From Haematococcus lacustris (lineage: Eukaryota > Chlorophyta > Chlorophyceae > Chlamydomonadales > Haematococcaceae), in NCBI GenBank assembly GCA_030144725.1, contig JASKMD010000024.1, positions 2,099,076 to 2,163,075 of the forward strand: DNA of 64,000 nucleotides. Direction: 5' to 3'. The translations under genes and the position numbers were made by a program. Shown piece after piece: positions 54,683 through 62,561 of this stretch; position 1 is the stretch's first letter, and each line of letters opens with the position of its first letter. The notes under the pieces are model-generated. The model was not told where the DNA came from and made no database searches. It saw nothing but the letters and a program-made list of their open reading frames with translations.

Positions 54683-54796
54683 AGCGCAATAGATTGAAGC
54701 ACCACTTCCCGATGAACAACCACTATCACACATTGAAAAGTGATATTTGCTAAGCGCGGCTTCGCCGCGCATTGAGCTTTAAGAACGCATGAAAAC

Positions 54797-55923
54797 GGAA
54801 CTAAATTAGATAGTGGAAGCGCCCGGGGCGTTTTAGGCGCCCTAAAAACACTCGGCCTCGGCGCTGGAGCGTAACAGCTCTCGACCTCAGCCAGCAGCCG
54901 CGTCGCTACGCTCCGCGGCTGCTGGCTTCGGTCTCGAGCTGTTACGCTCCAGCGCCTCGGCCTCGCGTTTTTAGGGCGCCTAAAACTACCGGCGCTTCCA
55001 CTATCTACTACTTAGTTCCGTTTTCATGCGTTATAATAGTTAATAGCCTGCTTTTTAGGAGACTTAGTTCCCTATTATGCTCTTAAAAACGCGGGACGCG
55101 GACCATTTTAAAAAAGTGCATAGCTGGTTCAAACTGGCTACCGTTGCAAGTCGCGTATGGTGCTACCACGCCCCGCCCTTCGCTCCAAAACAAAGTGTTG
55201 CTCCAGAAGTGCGGCTTCGCCGCACAGAATGTAGCCACAACGCACCTGAAACGGAACTAAATTAGATAGTGGAAGCGCCCGGGGCGTTTTAGGCCCCCAA
55301 AAACACTCGGCCTCGGCGCTGGAGCGTAACAGCTCTCGACCTCAGCCAGCAGCCGCGTCGCTACGCTCCGCGGCTGCTGGCTTCGGTCTCGAGCTGTTAC
55401 GCTCCAGCGCCTCGGCCTCGCGTTTTTAGGGCGCCTAAAACTACCGGCGCTTCCACTATCTACTACTTAGTTCCGTTTTCATGCGTTATAATAGTTAATA
55501 GCCTGCTTTTTAGGAGACTTAGTTCCCTATTATGCTCTTAAAAACGCGGGACGCGGACCATTTTAAAAAAGTGCATAGCTGGTTCAAACTGGCTACCGTT
55601 GCAAGTCGCGTATGGTGCTACCACGCCCCGCCCTTCGCTCCAAAACAAAGTGTTGCTCCAGAAGTGCGGCTTCGCCGCACAGAATGTAGCCACAACGCAC
55701 CTGAAACGGAACTAAATTAGATAGTGGAAGCGCCCGGGGCGTTTTAGGCCCCCAAAAACACTCGGCCTCGGCGCTGGAGCGTAACAGCTCTCGACCTCAG
55801 CCAGCAGCCGCGTCGCTACGCTCCGCGGCTGCTGGCTTCGGTCTCGAGCTGTTACGCTCCAGCGCCTCGGCCTCGCGTTTTTAGGGCGCCTAAAACTACC
55901 GGCGCTTCCACTATCTACTACTT
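54797..55923. mobile_element. Tandem array of a 455-bp unit (foldback plus companion segment), two and a half copies
   Basis: The unit starts at ACGGAACTAAATTAGATAGT: 54797, 55251 and 55706. Each has a 200-bp foldback (54807-55007, 55263-55462, 55718-55917). The first two are followed by the 62-bp TTAGTTCCGTTTTCATGCGT arm and the companion segment. Copies 1 and 2 are almost identical, pointing to recent duplication. Confidence 0.9.
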
Positions 55924-55951
55924 AAAACGAGGTCTATTCACTATTACTTAG

Positions 55952-56151
55952 TAGATAATGGTGTCGCGGGTCGTTTTAGGCGGTTTAAAAAGGCGAGGCC
56001 GAGGCGCTGGAGCGTAACAGATCGAGACCGAAGCCAGCAGCCGCGGAGCGTAGCGACGCGGCTGCTGGCTGAGGTCGAGAGCTGTTACGCTCCAGCGCCG
56101 AGGCCGAGTGTTTTTGGGGGCCTAAAACGCCCCGGGCGCTTCCACTATCTA
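55952..56151. mobile_element. Chimeric foldback element (200 bp) in opposite orientation
   Basis: The left arm (TAGATAATGGTGTCGCGGG...) matches foldback 2 at 50550; the right arm (...GGGGGCCTAAAACGCCCCGG, CCACTATCTA) matches the foldbacks at 54.8-55.9 kb. It is followed by the companion segment 56155-56337 and an outer arm 56338-56400, mirroring the array on its left. Confidence 0.85.
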
Positions 56152-56447
56152 ATTTAGTTCCGTTTCAGGTGCGTTGTGGCTACATTCTGTGCGGCGAAGC
56201 CGCACTTCTGGAGCAACACTTTGTTTTGGAGCGAAGGGCGGGGCGTGGTAGCACCATACGCGACTTGCAACGGTAGCCAGTTTGAACCAGCTATGCACTT
56301 TTTTAAAATGGTCCGCGTCCCGCGTTTTTAAGAGCATAATAGGGAACTAAGTCTCCTAAAAAGCAGGCTATTAACTATTATAACGCATGAAAACGGAACT
56401 AATACCAGATAATCGCCTCTACCTCGCACATTACGCGAATCTAATGG

Positions 56448-56763: not shown

Positions 56764-59700
56764 CTAGCCTTCTAGTTTTCTTGGCCCCCTCCTCATGCTG
56801 TCCAAAAACGTGAGGAGTTGCAGAACCAGAATGCTGACCATGACGCCCATGAACACCCAAGAGTACTTGAAGCCAGATGACACTGACTCGGTCTGCCCAC
56901 GGCCTGCCTTGTTGCGTGTTTGCTGTGCAACTCGAGCACCTGCAGTGGGGCTTCCCTCCTCCTCCTCCTCCTCCTCTCCTGAATACTCGATGTCTTCGTC
57001 TTCATCAACATCGTCCGGATGAGCTAGATCCTCCGCCTCCAGATCCACCTGCCGTGACCTCACAGCTTTCACTGTTGCGCTGGAAGCAATCGAAACTGGT
57101 GTTAAAGGTACTTTGTGGCAAGCAAACAGATGAAAGGCTAAGGGCAGCTGGCCATGCCCCCATCTTGTGGCAAAGGGGCTGTGAGCTGCTAGACTCTACA
57201 ATGCAAAGAGTTGACACTGAAGCCAAGGGCACATGTCCCTCACCCCACACTACGGCCAGGGGCGCATGCAGCGTGTCCCATGACCACCCACAATTACGCC
57301 CGTGCATGTGGACGTTGGGCCAGTGCGCGGGCCGTGCAAGTCGTGTGTGCATGGTAGCAGTGCGACATGGCACAGCAGCCTGTGACAGCACCTCGACTTG
57401 TGTGCCACGGCAAACATGGCCCCCTCCCCCAAGGGACTAGGCCTAGATGGTCGCCAGCAGTTCAATGAGGGAGAGGGCGCCCTGCCCTGCCCTGCCCTGC
57501 CCTGCCCTGCCCTGCCCTGCCCTGCCCTGCCCTGCCCTGCCCTGCCCTGCCCTGCCCTGCCCTGCCCTGCCCTACCCTGGCCTGGCCTCACCTGGTGATA
57601 AAGCTCCACAGGGTTGAGGTGCAGAGGCCCCAGCAGCGCTGCCAGCAGGGCCTCCTCATGCTCCAAAGCCTGCACAGCGGCCCGCCCGGGGTCCTGCCGC
57701 GTGTGGTGGGGCAGCGGCCAGGCATGCTGTAGGTGGCCTGTGAGCAGCGCATCAGGGCATGCAGGCGGCTGCACCCCGTGCTTGCATGCCAGCAAGATTT
57801 GGCTACCCCGTTCCTTCATTTAACAAGCCACACCTGACGTGAACAACAGCTGGTAGCTGCTGGCCGCTCGTACCTGCCCACACATGGACAATTGCATTGC
57901 CCTGATAGAAGCCCTGATAGAAGCCTCGACAATTGCATTGCCCTGGTAGGAGCAAAGTGTAGGTGTAAATGTGTGCAGTGTATGCAGTGTATTCAATTAG
58001 ACGCAATGTGTAAAAGCTGATAGGAGCAAAGTGTAGGTCTATATAAGAGCAGTATACGCATACAGTGTAAATCAGTGTCTACAGTGCAGCAACTGTGCGG
58101 CCACACAAGGATCTGGCCACACAAGGACCTGCACTGTACTGACCTGGTTGAAGCAAAGGGGACGAGCTGTGTGCCCAGCTTTACAGCAGCATGCGGGGCG
58201 GGGAGAGCATGTCCAGACAGTGTATGGGGGAGTTGGAGCCCTTCCAGGCCTGTGACGCTGGTTCCACCCGGGCTGCCAGCCAACAGGCACCCACCTAGTG
58301 ACACGAGCCAGTCTGCACCTGTCAGCAGCAGCCTCGACAGCGCTACCAGGCCACTAGCAGGCCAGCCTCAGCAACAGCCTGCCCAGCACAGCCCACCCTC
58401 ACCAGGCTTGAAGCGGTTGAAGAAGCTGGTGCAGGGCGCGCCATCACGGAGCGTCAGATCCCTACCACCGCTTGGTGTTAGTGTGCCGGCCGCAGCACCA
58501 CCACCACGCTCAAGGCTGAGCCCCTCATCAGTAGCCTCCACCTTGCATGCCCCCTCTGCCATGCGGCTGCCACCTGGCTGCTGGGCTGCATTAGGCTGGC
58601 CAGCCTCAGCTTCCACGGCATGGAGGTCCACAGGCAGCCACACTGGGGCGTCCAACACCTCACCTGGCCCAGTCAGCGTCAGTGTGTGCTCATTGCCGCC
58701 CTGCAAGCAGGGAAGGCAGCCAACACTTTGCTTCCCCATATGCACTTCTACTGTGTGCCATGCTGAATGTGCAGTTGGTGCAGTTGGTGCAGCTGGTGCA
58801 GTGTTGGTGCAGGTGGTGCAGAAGTACGCCACGCTGGCAGGCCTGGCTGAGCAGCTAGGGCTTGTGAGTAGTCTGGTGGAGCAGGCAGTGGAGAGTGAGG
58901 TGTGACAGAGATGTGGCAGTGTGGTGAGGTGTGACAGAGATGTGGCAGAGTGGTGAGGTGTGACAGAGATGTGGCAGAGTGGGAGTGTGGTGAGGGGTGT
59001 GACAGAGATGCTGTCCCCTGTGGTACTGGTTTACTGCTCCCAACATTGACGCCGACGCGTGGTAGCGGCACTGGCATTGCCTGGCCTGCCTGCCCTAGAG
59101 GTCAGTGGGTGGATGCTTCCCAGCTGCGCACCACACAGTTGAAGGTGTAGGCAAGGCGCAAGGTGGCTGGGCCAAAGAAGGGGTTGTCTAGGAAGCGCCA
59201 TCGCACTGCACATCACCGCCAAAGGGGTGGAAAGGCTGTTGCTTGGCAGGCGTCTGCTGACAGGCCTGGAAGACCTGCCTGGCAGTAGAGCACCTGGGCC
59301 CCTGCAGCCTGCAGCCTGGCATGCCATGGCAGCCCAGCTCTGCTTCTGCTGACATGCCACTGCTGCTGCCCTTGCTGTCATGCACAACTTGTGGTGTGCT
59401 TGTGAAGGTCAGCTGCCAGGCAGGTGCTCAGGGCAGAGGGGTGCAGGGGCCTGGCAAAGAGTCCCAGTGCGCTGCCTACAGATACACTGGTCCCTGGTGG
59501 CATCCCTGGCAATGCAGGCAGGCAGGGTCAAATGCGCTGACCAGGTGCACATACATAGATACACACACACCCGTGCACTTGCGCCACGCCTCTTGAGGCG
59601 AGGGGACGTGCTGCCAGTCCCACTCCACAGCCACGTCCGCCAGTGCTGCCAGTGCCAGCTCGTCCCTGCTGCTCACTGCCAGGCAGCCAATGTCGGTCGC

Positions 59701-62561
59701 CTTGAGCGCCCTCAGCCAGAACAACGGCGGGGTTGTGGTCAGCAGCTGGTGAGGCTCATCCGTGCTGCTGTCACCATCATGGCTGCCACCACCACTGCTG
59801 CCGCCGCTGCTGGGTGCCAGCGCATCAGTAGTCCCAGTACTAGGCCAGCAGGGGGTGGCAATGCGGACAGGCGTCCTGGCCAGCAGCTGTGCTCTGCGCT
59901 GCGCCAGCGCCCGGCTGCTGGCGTCTGCCTGCTGAAGCACCTGCCACTCCCCTTGCCTCAGCTGCACCATCAGCTGCTCCACCTGGGCATGCAGGCCTGA
60001 CAGGGCATGCACCACGCGCTGCACGCTGGCTGGCGCGGCAGCCAGCCCCCCCGGCGCCAGGTGCCTGCCGGCAGTGCGGCCTGCCACCAGCTGGAAGCCC
60101 TCCTCGCTCACCTCCTCCTCCTCCTCCTCAGTGTCGTCATTGGCCTGACCGCTGGCTGGTGTGGTGGAGGTGGGCGACGACCCTGCTGCCTGCACCGCCG
60201 CAACAACAAAGTGGGAGCAACGTCAAGGGCAGCGTCAGGGGCAGTGCTGAATAGTTGCGTATATCATGCCCATGTTGCAGAGCAAGGGGGTGTGAGGATC
60301 ATGGTGTTTGGGTGTCTGCAGCAATGGCATATGCAGCAATGTCAGGCTGCATGCAGTGTAATGCATGCAGTGCGATGTGATTGCAGGGGGGAAAGGGCTG
60401 TCATGGCGCACTGGTGACACGGTGGTGCATGAAGCATGGTGACGTAATGGTGCGTTGGGTGCACTGGCAACCCACTTAACTGAACTTCGTCCAGCGGGTG
60501 TGAGGGGGCTGACGGGCACCTCTCACCTGAACTGCCTGCAGATACAGCTCCACTGCCCGAGGAATCACGTTCTTTACCAAGGCAGACAACAGCAGCATAT
60601 CATGCGCCCTGCAGATGAAGCAGAGCAATACCAACAGTGGCTGCAGTGGCAGCAGCAGGAGCAGCAGCAGCGGCACCGGCAGCAGCGGCGGCAGCAACAG
60701 TGGCAGCAACAGCAAAGTCAAGATGGAGGACGCCAATATTGCCACGTGTACCGGCCTGACAGCAACCTGACAGCTATTGGCTCAAGCGGTGTGAGCCATC
60801 ATCACACTCATTCCAGGCAGGCATGGGCAGCTGAGGGGCTGGCTACCTGCGCGCTGCTGTTTGGTCTTGCAGGCCGTCTGGGCCGCCAGCACCCTGCTCG
60901 TTGTCAAGCCCATCGTCATCCCCCTCGGCATCAGCTTCATCACCGCTGTCAGCCGCTGTGGGGTCCCAGGTCGTGTCGGCAGCCCCCTTGCCGACCTGCA
61001 TGCCGCATGCATGCAAGGCCCTGTCTGCATGCCCCATGGCTAGGCACCTGGGAGCGGCATGCTTTGGCGCATGACACTCGCCGCTGTGCAGCCGGCCCAG
61101 GGCCACGTCCCACTGAGCTGTGCAGGCTGGCCGCGGCTGGTGGCGGAGCATGCTAGGCAGTGCCCCCAGCCCTGCTGCTTGGCCAGTGCATGGCAGCCCC
61201 ATGTGCAGGATTGCTGCGGGTGGTCAGGTGTGGCTGCTGCTCACCTGGCGGGGTGTCAGGGGCGTGAAGAAGCGAAAGAAGCTGGGTACAGAGTGCACAG
61301 GAGGCCTGGGGCCATCAGACTGTCAAGCAGCAGGCCAGCCAGCCAGTGTACAGAGCAGCTTTGCGGCTTGCGCTGCCAACCAGTATGGCGGGTGGCACTG
61401 TGCCGACATGCACTATGCTGAGAGGAGATGGTGCGCTGGTGCGCCGTGTCTGCTATTAGGTGGGAACAGCGCATGTGTTTTAACTTCGGCAGGGTATGGC
61501 CGAGGGCATGGCAGGAGTGAGGCATGGCGGCAGCATTGAGGAGGAGAGACTGCTGCAGCATGCATGCAAGGACGCACCGTGACTGGACTTCTAGTGCTAG
61601 TCACCAGCAGGTTGCAGCCGTGGCGCCAAATGATGTCTGTCGTCTCCTCTGCCGCGCTGACAAGCTGACCCTCGTCATCGCGGATGTAAGACAAACCACG
61701 CCGCAAGACCTAGGTGGCCAGGACAAAGTGGCATTTACTTGCCCTTGGCCCTTGGCCACACGCCATGTTGCAGTCATGCTAGGGTGTCACATCAACAATT
61801 CACTCATGTGGGCTGCATGGCGCCATGCACCACTCTGTAGCCATGCCCACCGTGTTCTCAAAACAGGGGTTGTCATCGTCAAAGTGGAACTCAACCCATG
61901 TGCCGAACGGGCCTTGCACATAGCGGATGTCCGTCAGGTGAAGAAGGGCTCTGGTGTCTTGGGGGTGTAGGTGCGGTCCCACCACAGGCTGCAAGCGGGT
62001 AAGAAGGACAAGTTCATACTGCTCATACGTTGCAGTGTGTTCAACACTGCACATCACTTACATCAGCCTTCATAGCATGGTACCAGAAGCCAGGCACACC
62101 AGCTGGCGGACCATTCTGGTTGCCACCCTTTGTCAAGGTAACCTCACAACCACGGAGCTCTTCTTCTGTGGGTTCACATGACCCATTGACCAGCTCCGCT
62201 CTGCAATGGAACAGACCTTGTTGGACTACACGTGTGTGACAGGGTGACATTGCTAGGTCGTGGCTAGCTATAGCTGTGTATTGTAGCTGTCTTAGGTAGG
62301 TATTGTAGCTGTCTTGCTGATGTGGAGTGTGAATACTGCCCACCTCCGTAGGAAGAGGGGTGCGCAGCGTTGAAGGTGTGCGTATACTAGCTCGTCTTTC
62401 GCTAGTCGTGTTTTAGGTTCGATGCCTTGCAGCTCGGCCTGTCGTAAGAGGCCCCCACAGGTCTCATAGCCCGCCTGGCTACTGCTTGCGTTGCTACTCC
62501 GATGCTCCCTTACCTCAATGGCCGACAACGACGACACCGCTCCCTTCTGCGCCTTGCCCAT
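56764..62561 (-). CDS. Double NAP-domain protein with C-terminal tail anchor, 12 exons, about 774 aa
   Basis: NAP-family proteins are histone chaperones with a long dimerisation helix and an alpha/beta earmuff domain. Exons (high to low, all in phase): 62561-62344, 62200-62062, 61988-61851, 61709-61605, 61319-61245, 60995-60847, 60608-60527, 60189-59571, 59205-59135, 58700-58403, 57737-57592, 57048-56764. NAP domain 1: RRAELVNGSCEPTEEEL, VPGFWYHAMKAD, LLHLTDIRYVQGPFGTWVEF, DDDNPCFENT, TTDIIWRHGC, SFFRFFTP, VKNVIPRAVELYLQ. An acidic EEEEEE stretch then leads straight into domain 2 (about 357-680): a helix ALSGLHAQVEQLMVQLRQGE, FWLRALKATDIG, LALAALADVAVEWDWQ, FLDNPFFGPATLRLAYTF, TSFFNRFKP, LLGPLHLNPVELYHQ. 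A second acidic stretch (DVDEDEDIEYSGEEEEEEEG) precedes one hydrophobic segment at about 742-762 (YSWVFMGVMVSILVLQLLTF) and a 12-residue basic tail. Borders of exons 8, 9 and 12 are the least certain. The histone-binding role is inferred from the family. Confidence 0.85.
57479..57573. repeat. (CCCTG)n, about 19 copies, in the last intron of the NAP gene
   Basis: Starts about 18 nt beyond the donor of exon 11 when read on the gene strand, where it is (CAGGG)n. Same unit as the tract at 25062-26207. Confidence 0.97.
58900..59010. repeat. GTGTGACAGAGATGTGGCAGAG-type tandem repeat in a NAP-gene intron
   Basis: Four imperfect copies of a unit of about 36 bp containing GAGGTGTGACAGAGATGTGG. Confidence 0.85.

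Follow-up and report, generated by a model that had tools for sequence, protein, structure and literature searches.

Proteins of the NAP1/NAP1L type (yeast Nap1, C. elegans NAP1, NAP1L1) carry one NAP domain per chain, and canonical NAP1-type proteins are soluble. Arabidopsis NAP1;1 likewise has one NAP domain, as do fission yeast Ccp1 and Vps75, which share the NAP-family fold but are more distant; Plasmodium NAP, to our knowledge, is a single-domain protein with no anchor described. Canonical NAPs are homodimers according to the available part of PMC9128123. The location of Arabidopsis NAP1;1 depends on C-terminal CaaX farnesylation (PMC12197051, in the part available), and lipophilic control at the C-terminus therefore has a precedent in the family. 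Here we describe a gene of the green alga Haematococcus lacustris that departs from this plan. It lies on the minus strand of a 64,000-nucleotide (nt) stretch (assembly GCA_030144725.1, contig JASKMD010000024.1, positions 2,099,076 to 2,163,075), referred to below as the window, and encodes two unequal NAP domains in one chain, with one C-terminal membrane segment predicted from hydropathy.

The gene structure, the two NAP domains, the conserved architecture, the predicted folds and the asymmetry of the halves are established by the comparisons given below. As a whole, we read the protein with moderate confidence as an asymmetric, tail-anchored intramolecular NAP pair that faces the cytosol or nucleoplasm. 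Its parts are known, and their combination appears to be new: tandem unequal NAP domains with a tail anchor, common to Chlamydomonadales, of which at least the transmembrane segment also occurs in Scenedesmus. Among the literature matches listed, mostly open-access papers, none describes a NAP protein that is tandem or membrane-anchored. Chlamydomonas reinhardtii NAP proteins are placed in a tree in PMC4357127, where the word "transmembrane" is absent from the main text.

Two NAP domains and a predicted membrane segment in one chain

The Pfam NAP model (PF00956) matched two stretches of the joined protein, taken as 784 amino acids (aa) in the first gene model (hmmscan, E 1.2e-42). Each half also exceeded the gathering cut-off of 28.6 bits when scored separately, the first with 106.2 bits (E 2.3e-30) and the second with 45.3 bits (E 8.4e-12). 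Single open frames scored under this cut-off, 59476-60222 slightly (26.7 bits, E 3.8e-6) and 61800-62057 more clearly (22.1 bits, E 1e-4). The two successive NAP-like domains proposed by a preceding sequence-only reading are thus recovered, and their order recurs in relatives. That reading assigned the long dimerisation helix to domain 2; both domains have it, at residues 2-54 (53 residues) and 410-460 (51 residues) in the model of a relative from Edaphochlamys.

Only one region of the final 759-residue protein (725-750) rises above the hydropathy threshold (mean 1.6 over 19 residues). The predicted segment within it (729-747) is followed by a 12-residue tail, DSMRRGPRKLEG, with four basic and two acidic residues (net +2). 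The hydrophobic C-terminal segment of the sequence-only reading therefore stands, whereas its "12 basic residues" are a tail of 12 residues, four of them basic. The tail-anchored layout holds as well, the sole hydropathy region being near the C-terminus here and in P0003-P0007 of the relatives listed below.

Three protein searches, each scoring about 8,000 candidates that share most words, returned nine proteins (P0001-P0009). Two are H. lacustris annotations (P0001 and P0002, see below); the others are P0003 (JGI source, 681 aa), P0004 (Gonium pectorale, 782 aa), P0005 (Edaphochlamys debaryana, 751 aa), P0006 and P0007 (Volvox africanus, 840 aa each), P0008 (C. reinhardtii XP_001701235.1, 443 aa, an incomplete model) and P0009 (Scenedesmus sp. 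PABB004, annotated NUDT19, 1173 aa). A scan of viral contigs gave 29 pattern matches, none of which was confirmed as a relative. Over the BLAST stretches, the domains of the relatives are about 28-45% identical to those of the window protein. The full order of two NAP domains, acidic region, transmembrane segment and short tail is found in P0003-P0007, so that the recurrence in other Chlamydomonadales proposed as a check is observed in Gonium, Edaphochlamys and V. africanus (two records). Both domains and a membrane segment are present in 7/7 proteins, a count that comprises the window protein, P0003-P0007 and P0009, and leaves out P0001 (same gene) and the incomplete P0002 and P0008.

A single segment near the C-terminus with a tail of 8-14 residues characterises the window protein, P0001 and P0003-P0007. 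The segments end alike across relatives (LQLLTFLD, AQVLMALD, AQLLLAQE, AQILVFMD, AQVLVFLD twice, and AQFFVFLD), this pattern having been composed after inspection of the sequences. A chance hydrophobic reading of the last exon was rejected because a similar segment with a similar end recurs in the relatives. Upstream of the segment, aspartate and glutamate (D/E) make up 25-35% of 85 residues in 8/8 measured proteins (P0001 counted beside the window protein, P0008 excluded). The SFFRFF block of domain 1 is present in all eight aligned proteins that cover it, P0008 being without this region.

A further observation concerns the relatives' domain 1. After the last strand and ahead of the SFFRFF block, P0003-P0007 and P0009 carry a basic insert (e.g., KKGKKGKK, RKHGKH), which Haematococcus lacks; canonical NAP1 has at this place a hairpin bearing a nuclear-localisation signal.

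Profiles of the two domains detect each other (hhalign 99.6%, E 1e-24), and within each of P0004-P0007 the domains are 33-35% identical. A small tree of 124 columns, built with three reference chains and with SET as the root, gathers the seven domain 2 sequences in a single clade (97%) and gives 23% support to a domain 1 group; it separates all 14 domains from the chains of NAP1L1 and Plasmodium (93%). We rely on the domain 2 clade alone, the root and the order within domain 1 being unsettled. Haematococcus belongs to Chlamydomonadales and Scenedesmus to Sphaeropleales; since the architecture occurs in both, the fusion would predate their split.

The algal proteins share with NAP1/NAP1L the NAP fold (seen in each domain of the P0005 model), the long dimerisation helix, IDW-like and SFFxFF blocks, an EPTxEE stretch (domain 1) and the acidic C-terminal stretch. 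Against the PDB, the domain 2 profile scores best with Plasmodium NAP, NAP1L1 and C. elegans NAP1; SET comes next, ahead of yeast Nap1 and NRP. Plasmodium NAP (3hfd, 3fs3, 3gyv) is the best match of domain 2 in both sequence and structure, and both are without the accessory helix (domain 2 of the P0005 model). The earmuff domain also aligns with SET/TAF-I beta and plant NRP1/NRP2. An assignment to SET/NRP is not favoured: NAP1-type chains lead for the domain 2 profile and, ahead of SET/NRP, for the Volvox and Edaphochlamys proteins, although SET leads narrowly for the Haematococcus protein, slightly above yeast Nap1. Arabidopsis NAP1;1 is similar in being NAP1-type with a lipophilic C-terminus, which there is a prenyl group and in the algae an encoded transmembrane helix.

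A single spliced gene

The final model comprises 13 exons between the ATG at 62561 and the stop codon at 56766-56764 (Table 1). All 12 introns are GT..AG with consistent phases; the splice sites were chosen by hand with the NAP domain as a guide. A first hand-built model (12 exons, 784 aa) agreed with the sequence-only reading, of which the single gene and the phases were retained and the exon count was not, its exon 1 containing a 75-nt GT-AG intron. The version with 13 exons and 759 aa was adopted because these 75 nt (25 residues) are absent from P0002, the second H. lacustris annotation, and have no counterpart in the other relatives.

P0001, a 784-aa H. lacustris protein (QJQ45_028610), is 99% identical to the window protein, with seven differing positions over 759 shared residues. 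P0003 runs as one unbroken chain, as judged by eye, across junctions 1/2, 8/9 (where the linker is aligned with gaps), 9/10, 10/11, 11/12 and 12/13; at the last of these, HQ/VDLEAEDL lines up with its AQVEVEEGDV. P0003 comes from a source with contigs of at most 2,373 nt, and a contig of 2.4 kb with 681 unbroken codons points most readily to a transcript; both domains and the anchor would then lie on one mRNA.

The sequence-only reading named two separate genes, with a new start in the region of its exon 8, as the case that would overturn it. This case finds no support and is not favoured, for two reasons. Followed upstream, the frame of exon 9 reaches a stop after 12 codons without passing an ATG, and its first ATG is residue 360, already inside the domain 2 helix; the relatives, for their part, are continuous here. 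A separate gene beginning in an upstream exon outside the present model is the less favoured alternative to the single gene.

A mainly soluble protein, with the anchor spliced out or with two genes fused in the model, is very improbable in our estimate. It would agree with the P0002 annotation, which continues past exon 10 into the following intron and stops at 527 aa, short of the anchor, with the poor pyrimidine tract of the exon 13 acceptor, and with conflicting gene models in C. reinhardtii and Scenedesmus. Against this, P0001 and P0003-P0007 hold both domains and the anchor, P0003 is continuous at the six checked junctions, and a P0002-like product would split domain 2 in half.

Table 1. 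Features of the two-domain NAP gene and its surroundings (positions in the window)
Feature	Position	Strand	Content
Exon 1	62514..62561	-	aa 1-16; start codon; domain 1 dimerisation helix begins; splice backed by P0002 and the P0003-P0008 alignment
75-nt intron	62439..62513	-	kept as coding by the sequence-only reading and the P0001 annotation; no counterpart in P0002 or other relatives
Exon 2	62344..62438	-	remainder of domain 1 dimerisation helix
Exon 3	62062..62200	-	domain 1: EPTEEEL accessory stretch, GVPGFW block
Exon 4	61851..61988	-	domain 1: DIRYV and NPCFEN strands
Exon 5	61578..61709	-	domain 1: last strands
Exon 6	61245..61319	-	domain 1: SFFRFF block
Exon 7	60847..60995	-	acidic stretch ahead of domain 1 last helix; 15 D/E in 60 aa
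Exon 8	60527..60608	-	domain 1 last helix (IPRAVELY)
Exon 9	59571..60189	-	acidic linker, domain 2 dimerisation helix, FWLRALK block
Exon 10	59132..59205	-	domain 2 FLDNPFF strand; P0002 annotation stops just after, reading into the next intron
Exon 11	58403..58700	-	domain 2: last strands, SFFNRF block
Exon 12	57592..57737	-	domain 2: last helices (LNPVELY)
GCCCT tandem repeat, 22 copies	57479..57588	.	inside last intron
Exon 13	56764..57048	-	acidic C-terminal stretch, transmembrane segment, tail, stop
Predicted transmembrane segment WVFMGVMVSILVLQLLTFL	56803..56859	-	aa 729-747; tail DSMRRGPRKLEG after
Candidate polyadenylation signal TGTAA	56449..56453	-	sole TGTAA between 55500 and the stop codon

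TGTAA acts as a polyadenylation signal in green algae. Repeats occur both in and beside the gene. The intron between exons 10 and 11, whose other end is entered by the P0002 annotation, contains 3.3 copies of a 29-nt repeat (58895-58989). Downstream, an array at 54793-56402 ends about 360 nt from the stop codon; in its first part (54793-55924) a 455-nt unit is repeated head to tail about 2.5 times, and an inverted copy comes next. The inverted arms (55467-55925 and 55944-56402) are 97% complementary, with 18 nt between them, and contain inner inverted repeats of 63-82 nt. The array could be a small inverted-repeat mobile element.

Proposed pairing, client and membrane

What follows is our interpretation of how the chain would pair, insert into a membrane, and act, and on which membrane and client. 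A NAP1-like domain would have been duplicated in tandem in chlorophycean green algae and joined to a C-terminal anchor. The two long helices would most likely pair within the chain into one "earmuff", making a second polypeptide needless. Domain 1, with the acidic segment before its last helix, would be the likelier binder of a basic client, for which H2A-H2B is the leading candidate, and domain 2 the more diverged structural partner that bears the anchor. The pair would face the cytosol or nucleoplasm from a membrane, probably the endoplasmic reticulum (ER) or nuclear envelope, and hold or pass its client at the surface.

Several observations weigh against this reading, and the rival explanations draw on some of them. 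The Scenedesmus protein P0009 continues past the membrane segment for 454 residues with a zinc-ribbon and a NUDIX domain, and thus, as annotated, is not tail-anchored; the annotation may have merged two genes, or the additional fusion may be real, and the protein shows a second, weak hydropathy peak at 361-381. In P0008, the apparent C. reinhardtii orthologue, most of the anchor and of the domain 1 earmuff is absent and domain 2 is incomplete; the protein ends in a similar tail, VLTFMDTLEFVRSRFSWAA, and its model seems to miss exons. A BLAST comparison of domains 1 and 2 of the window protein gives no significant match (E 0.36). For the Haematococcus protein itself AlphaFold yields a weak model (predicted local distance difference test, pLDDT, 48.5; predicted TM-score, pTM, 0.30), its query having retained the 75-nt intron and its alignment comprising five sequences; the Foldseek matches of this model agree with the NAP reading but are not counted as proof. 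The good structural model is that of one relative, P0005, as a single chain, judged from pTM and fold ranges rather than from inter-domain geometry.

The P0005 model contains two NAP folds (earmuff alpha/beta, with fold ranges taken from this protein alone). Its pTM of 0.57 suits, by our estimate, two domains held together better than one alone, and the 34-residue spacer (376-409) that leads from the last domain 1 helix to the long domain 2 helix is judged enough for pairing within the chain. The AlphaFold check suggested for the built-in NAP pair thus speaks for it, short of proof, and an intramolecular pair is favoured by the model. Alternatively, each domain could pair with its counterpart in a second molecule, so that four domains assemble on the membrane. 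This would follow the homodimerisation of canonical NAPs (PMC9128123, available part), and a prediction from one chain only is a setup that favours within-chain pairing. We nonetheless regard such an assembly as improbable, the single-chain pTM suiting a fixed mutual placement, the two long helices being matched in length and the spacing between them adequate.

The halves differ in the acidity of the segment that separates the SFFxFF block from the last helix; its ends were set with one pattern for domain 1 and another for domain 2. In domain 1 this segment spans 57-65 aa and includes 15-24 acidic residues in six of the seven proteins. In domain 2 it is 25-29 aa long with 1-4 acidic residues in 7/7, and no protein has an acidic stretch there. 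The exception is Scenedesmus, whose domain 1 stretch has 9 D/E versus 11 lysine or arginine residues in 83 aa, another point on the unfavourable side. Acidic stretches are common in histone chaperones.

The mapped histone contacts fit less well. The positions of yeast Nap1 D201 and D205 are occupied by P/P in Haematococcus domain 1 and are non-acidic in 7/7 domain 2 sequences; among the domain 1 sequences the D201 match is acidic in 3/7 and the D205 match in 0/7. For the C. elegans contacts, acidic matches occur in domains 1 and 2, respectively, in 6/7 and 3/7 sequences (D125), 3/7 and 0/7 (E129), and 0/7 and 0/7 (E132). The window protein has none of the five contact acids in domain 1, and in domain 2 the D125 match only. 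The reference proteins differ at these positions too, yeast having P at D125 and T at E132, and histone contacts vary between NAP proteins (PMC9128123, in the part available). The missing acids, mostly in domain 2, weaken the histone-chaperone reading without excluding it; histone binding is suggested here by family membership only. According to the same part of that source, yeast Nap1 grips one H2A-H2B with helices 4-6 from one subunit on one side and helix 8 from its partner on the other, and by analogy the fused pair could divide these subunit jobs between its domains.

Long hydrophobic segments with non-polar or negative tails are associated with the ER, and basic tails with mitochondria or plastids, with many exceptions (available part of PMC8644595). 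In the tails of P0003-P0007, basic residues number two or three and acidic ones one or two (net 0 to +1); as these are near neutral and the segments strongly hydrophobic, the ER or nuclear envelope is the more fitting location and probably the anchor membrane. The Haematococcus tail, with its four basic residues, also suits a mitochondrial or plastid outer membrane. The same protein might then be anchored in the mitochondrial or chloroplast outer membrane and serve a non-histone client, such as ribosomal proteins or other basic precursors. In its favour are the absence of several mapped histone-contact acids and the fact that NAP1L1 has been solved with UBE2O and ribosomal protein uL2, to judge from the titles of the structure entries. 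We consider this alternative unlikely, although a serious one, given the five other tails, which are better suited to the ER, and the acidic stretches, which are usual in histone chaperones (compare the CTAD in the available part of PMC9128123).

Returning to the tail-anchored intramolecular pair, we propose one specific role. Chlorophycean algae divide by multiple fission with rapid successive S phases. A ready-made asymmetric NAP pair tethered to the ER or nuclear envelope might serve these phases as a depot or hand-over station for H2A-H2B, a tentative suggestion that we ourselves think rather unlikely to hold in full. We know of membrane storage or gating of histones by such a pair from no other eukaryote.

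If the proposed arrangement is true, a fused unequal pair on a membrane separates the roles of the two halves, which is impossible in homodimers, and fixes the chaperone to one site in the cell. The cytosolic stage of H2A-H2B handling is poorly characterised, according to the accessible part of PMC12933015. Should the client be H2A-H2B, this stage would become testable in Chlamydomonas, with P0008 as the apparent orthologue; should it be another protein, the NAP fold would have been recruited to a membrane task.
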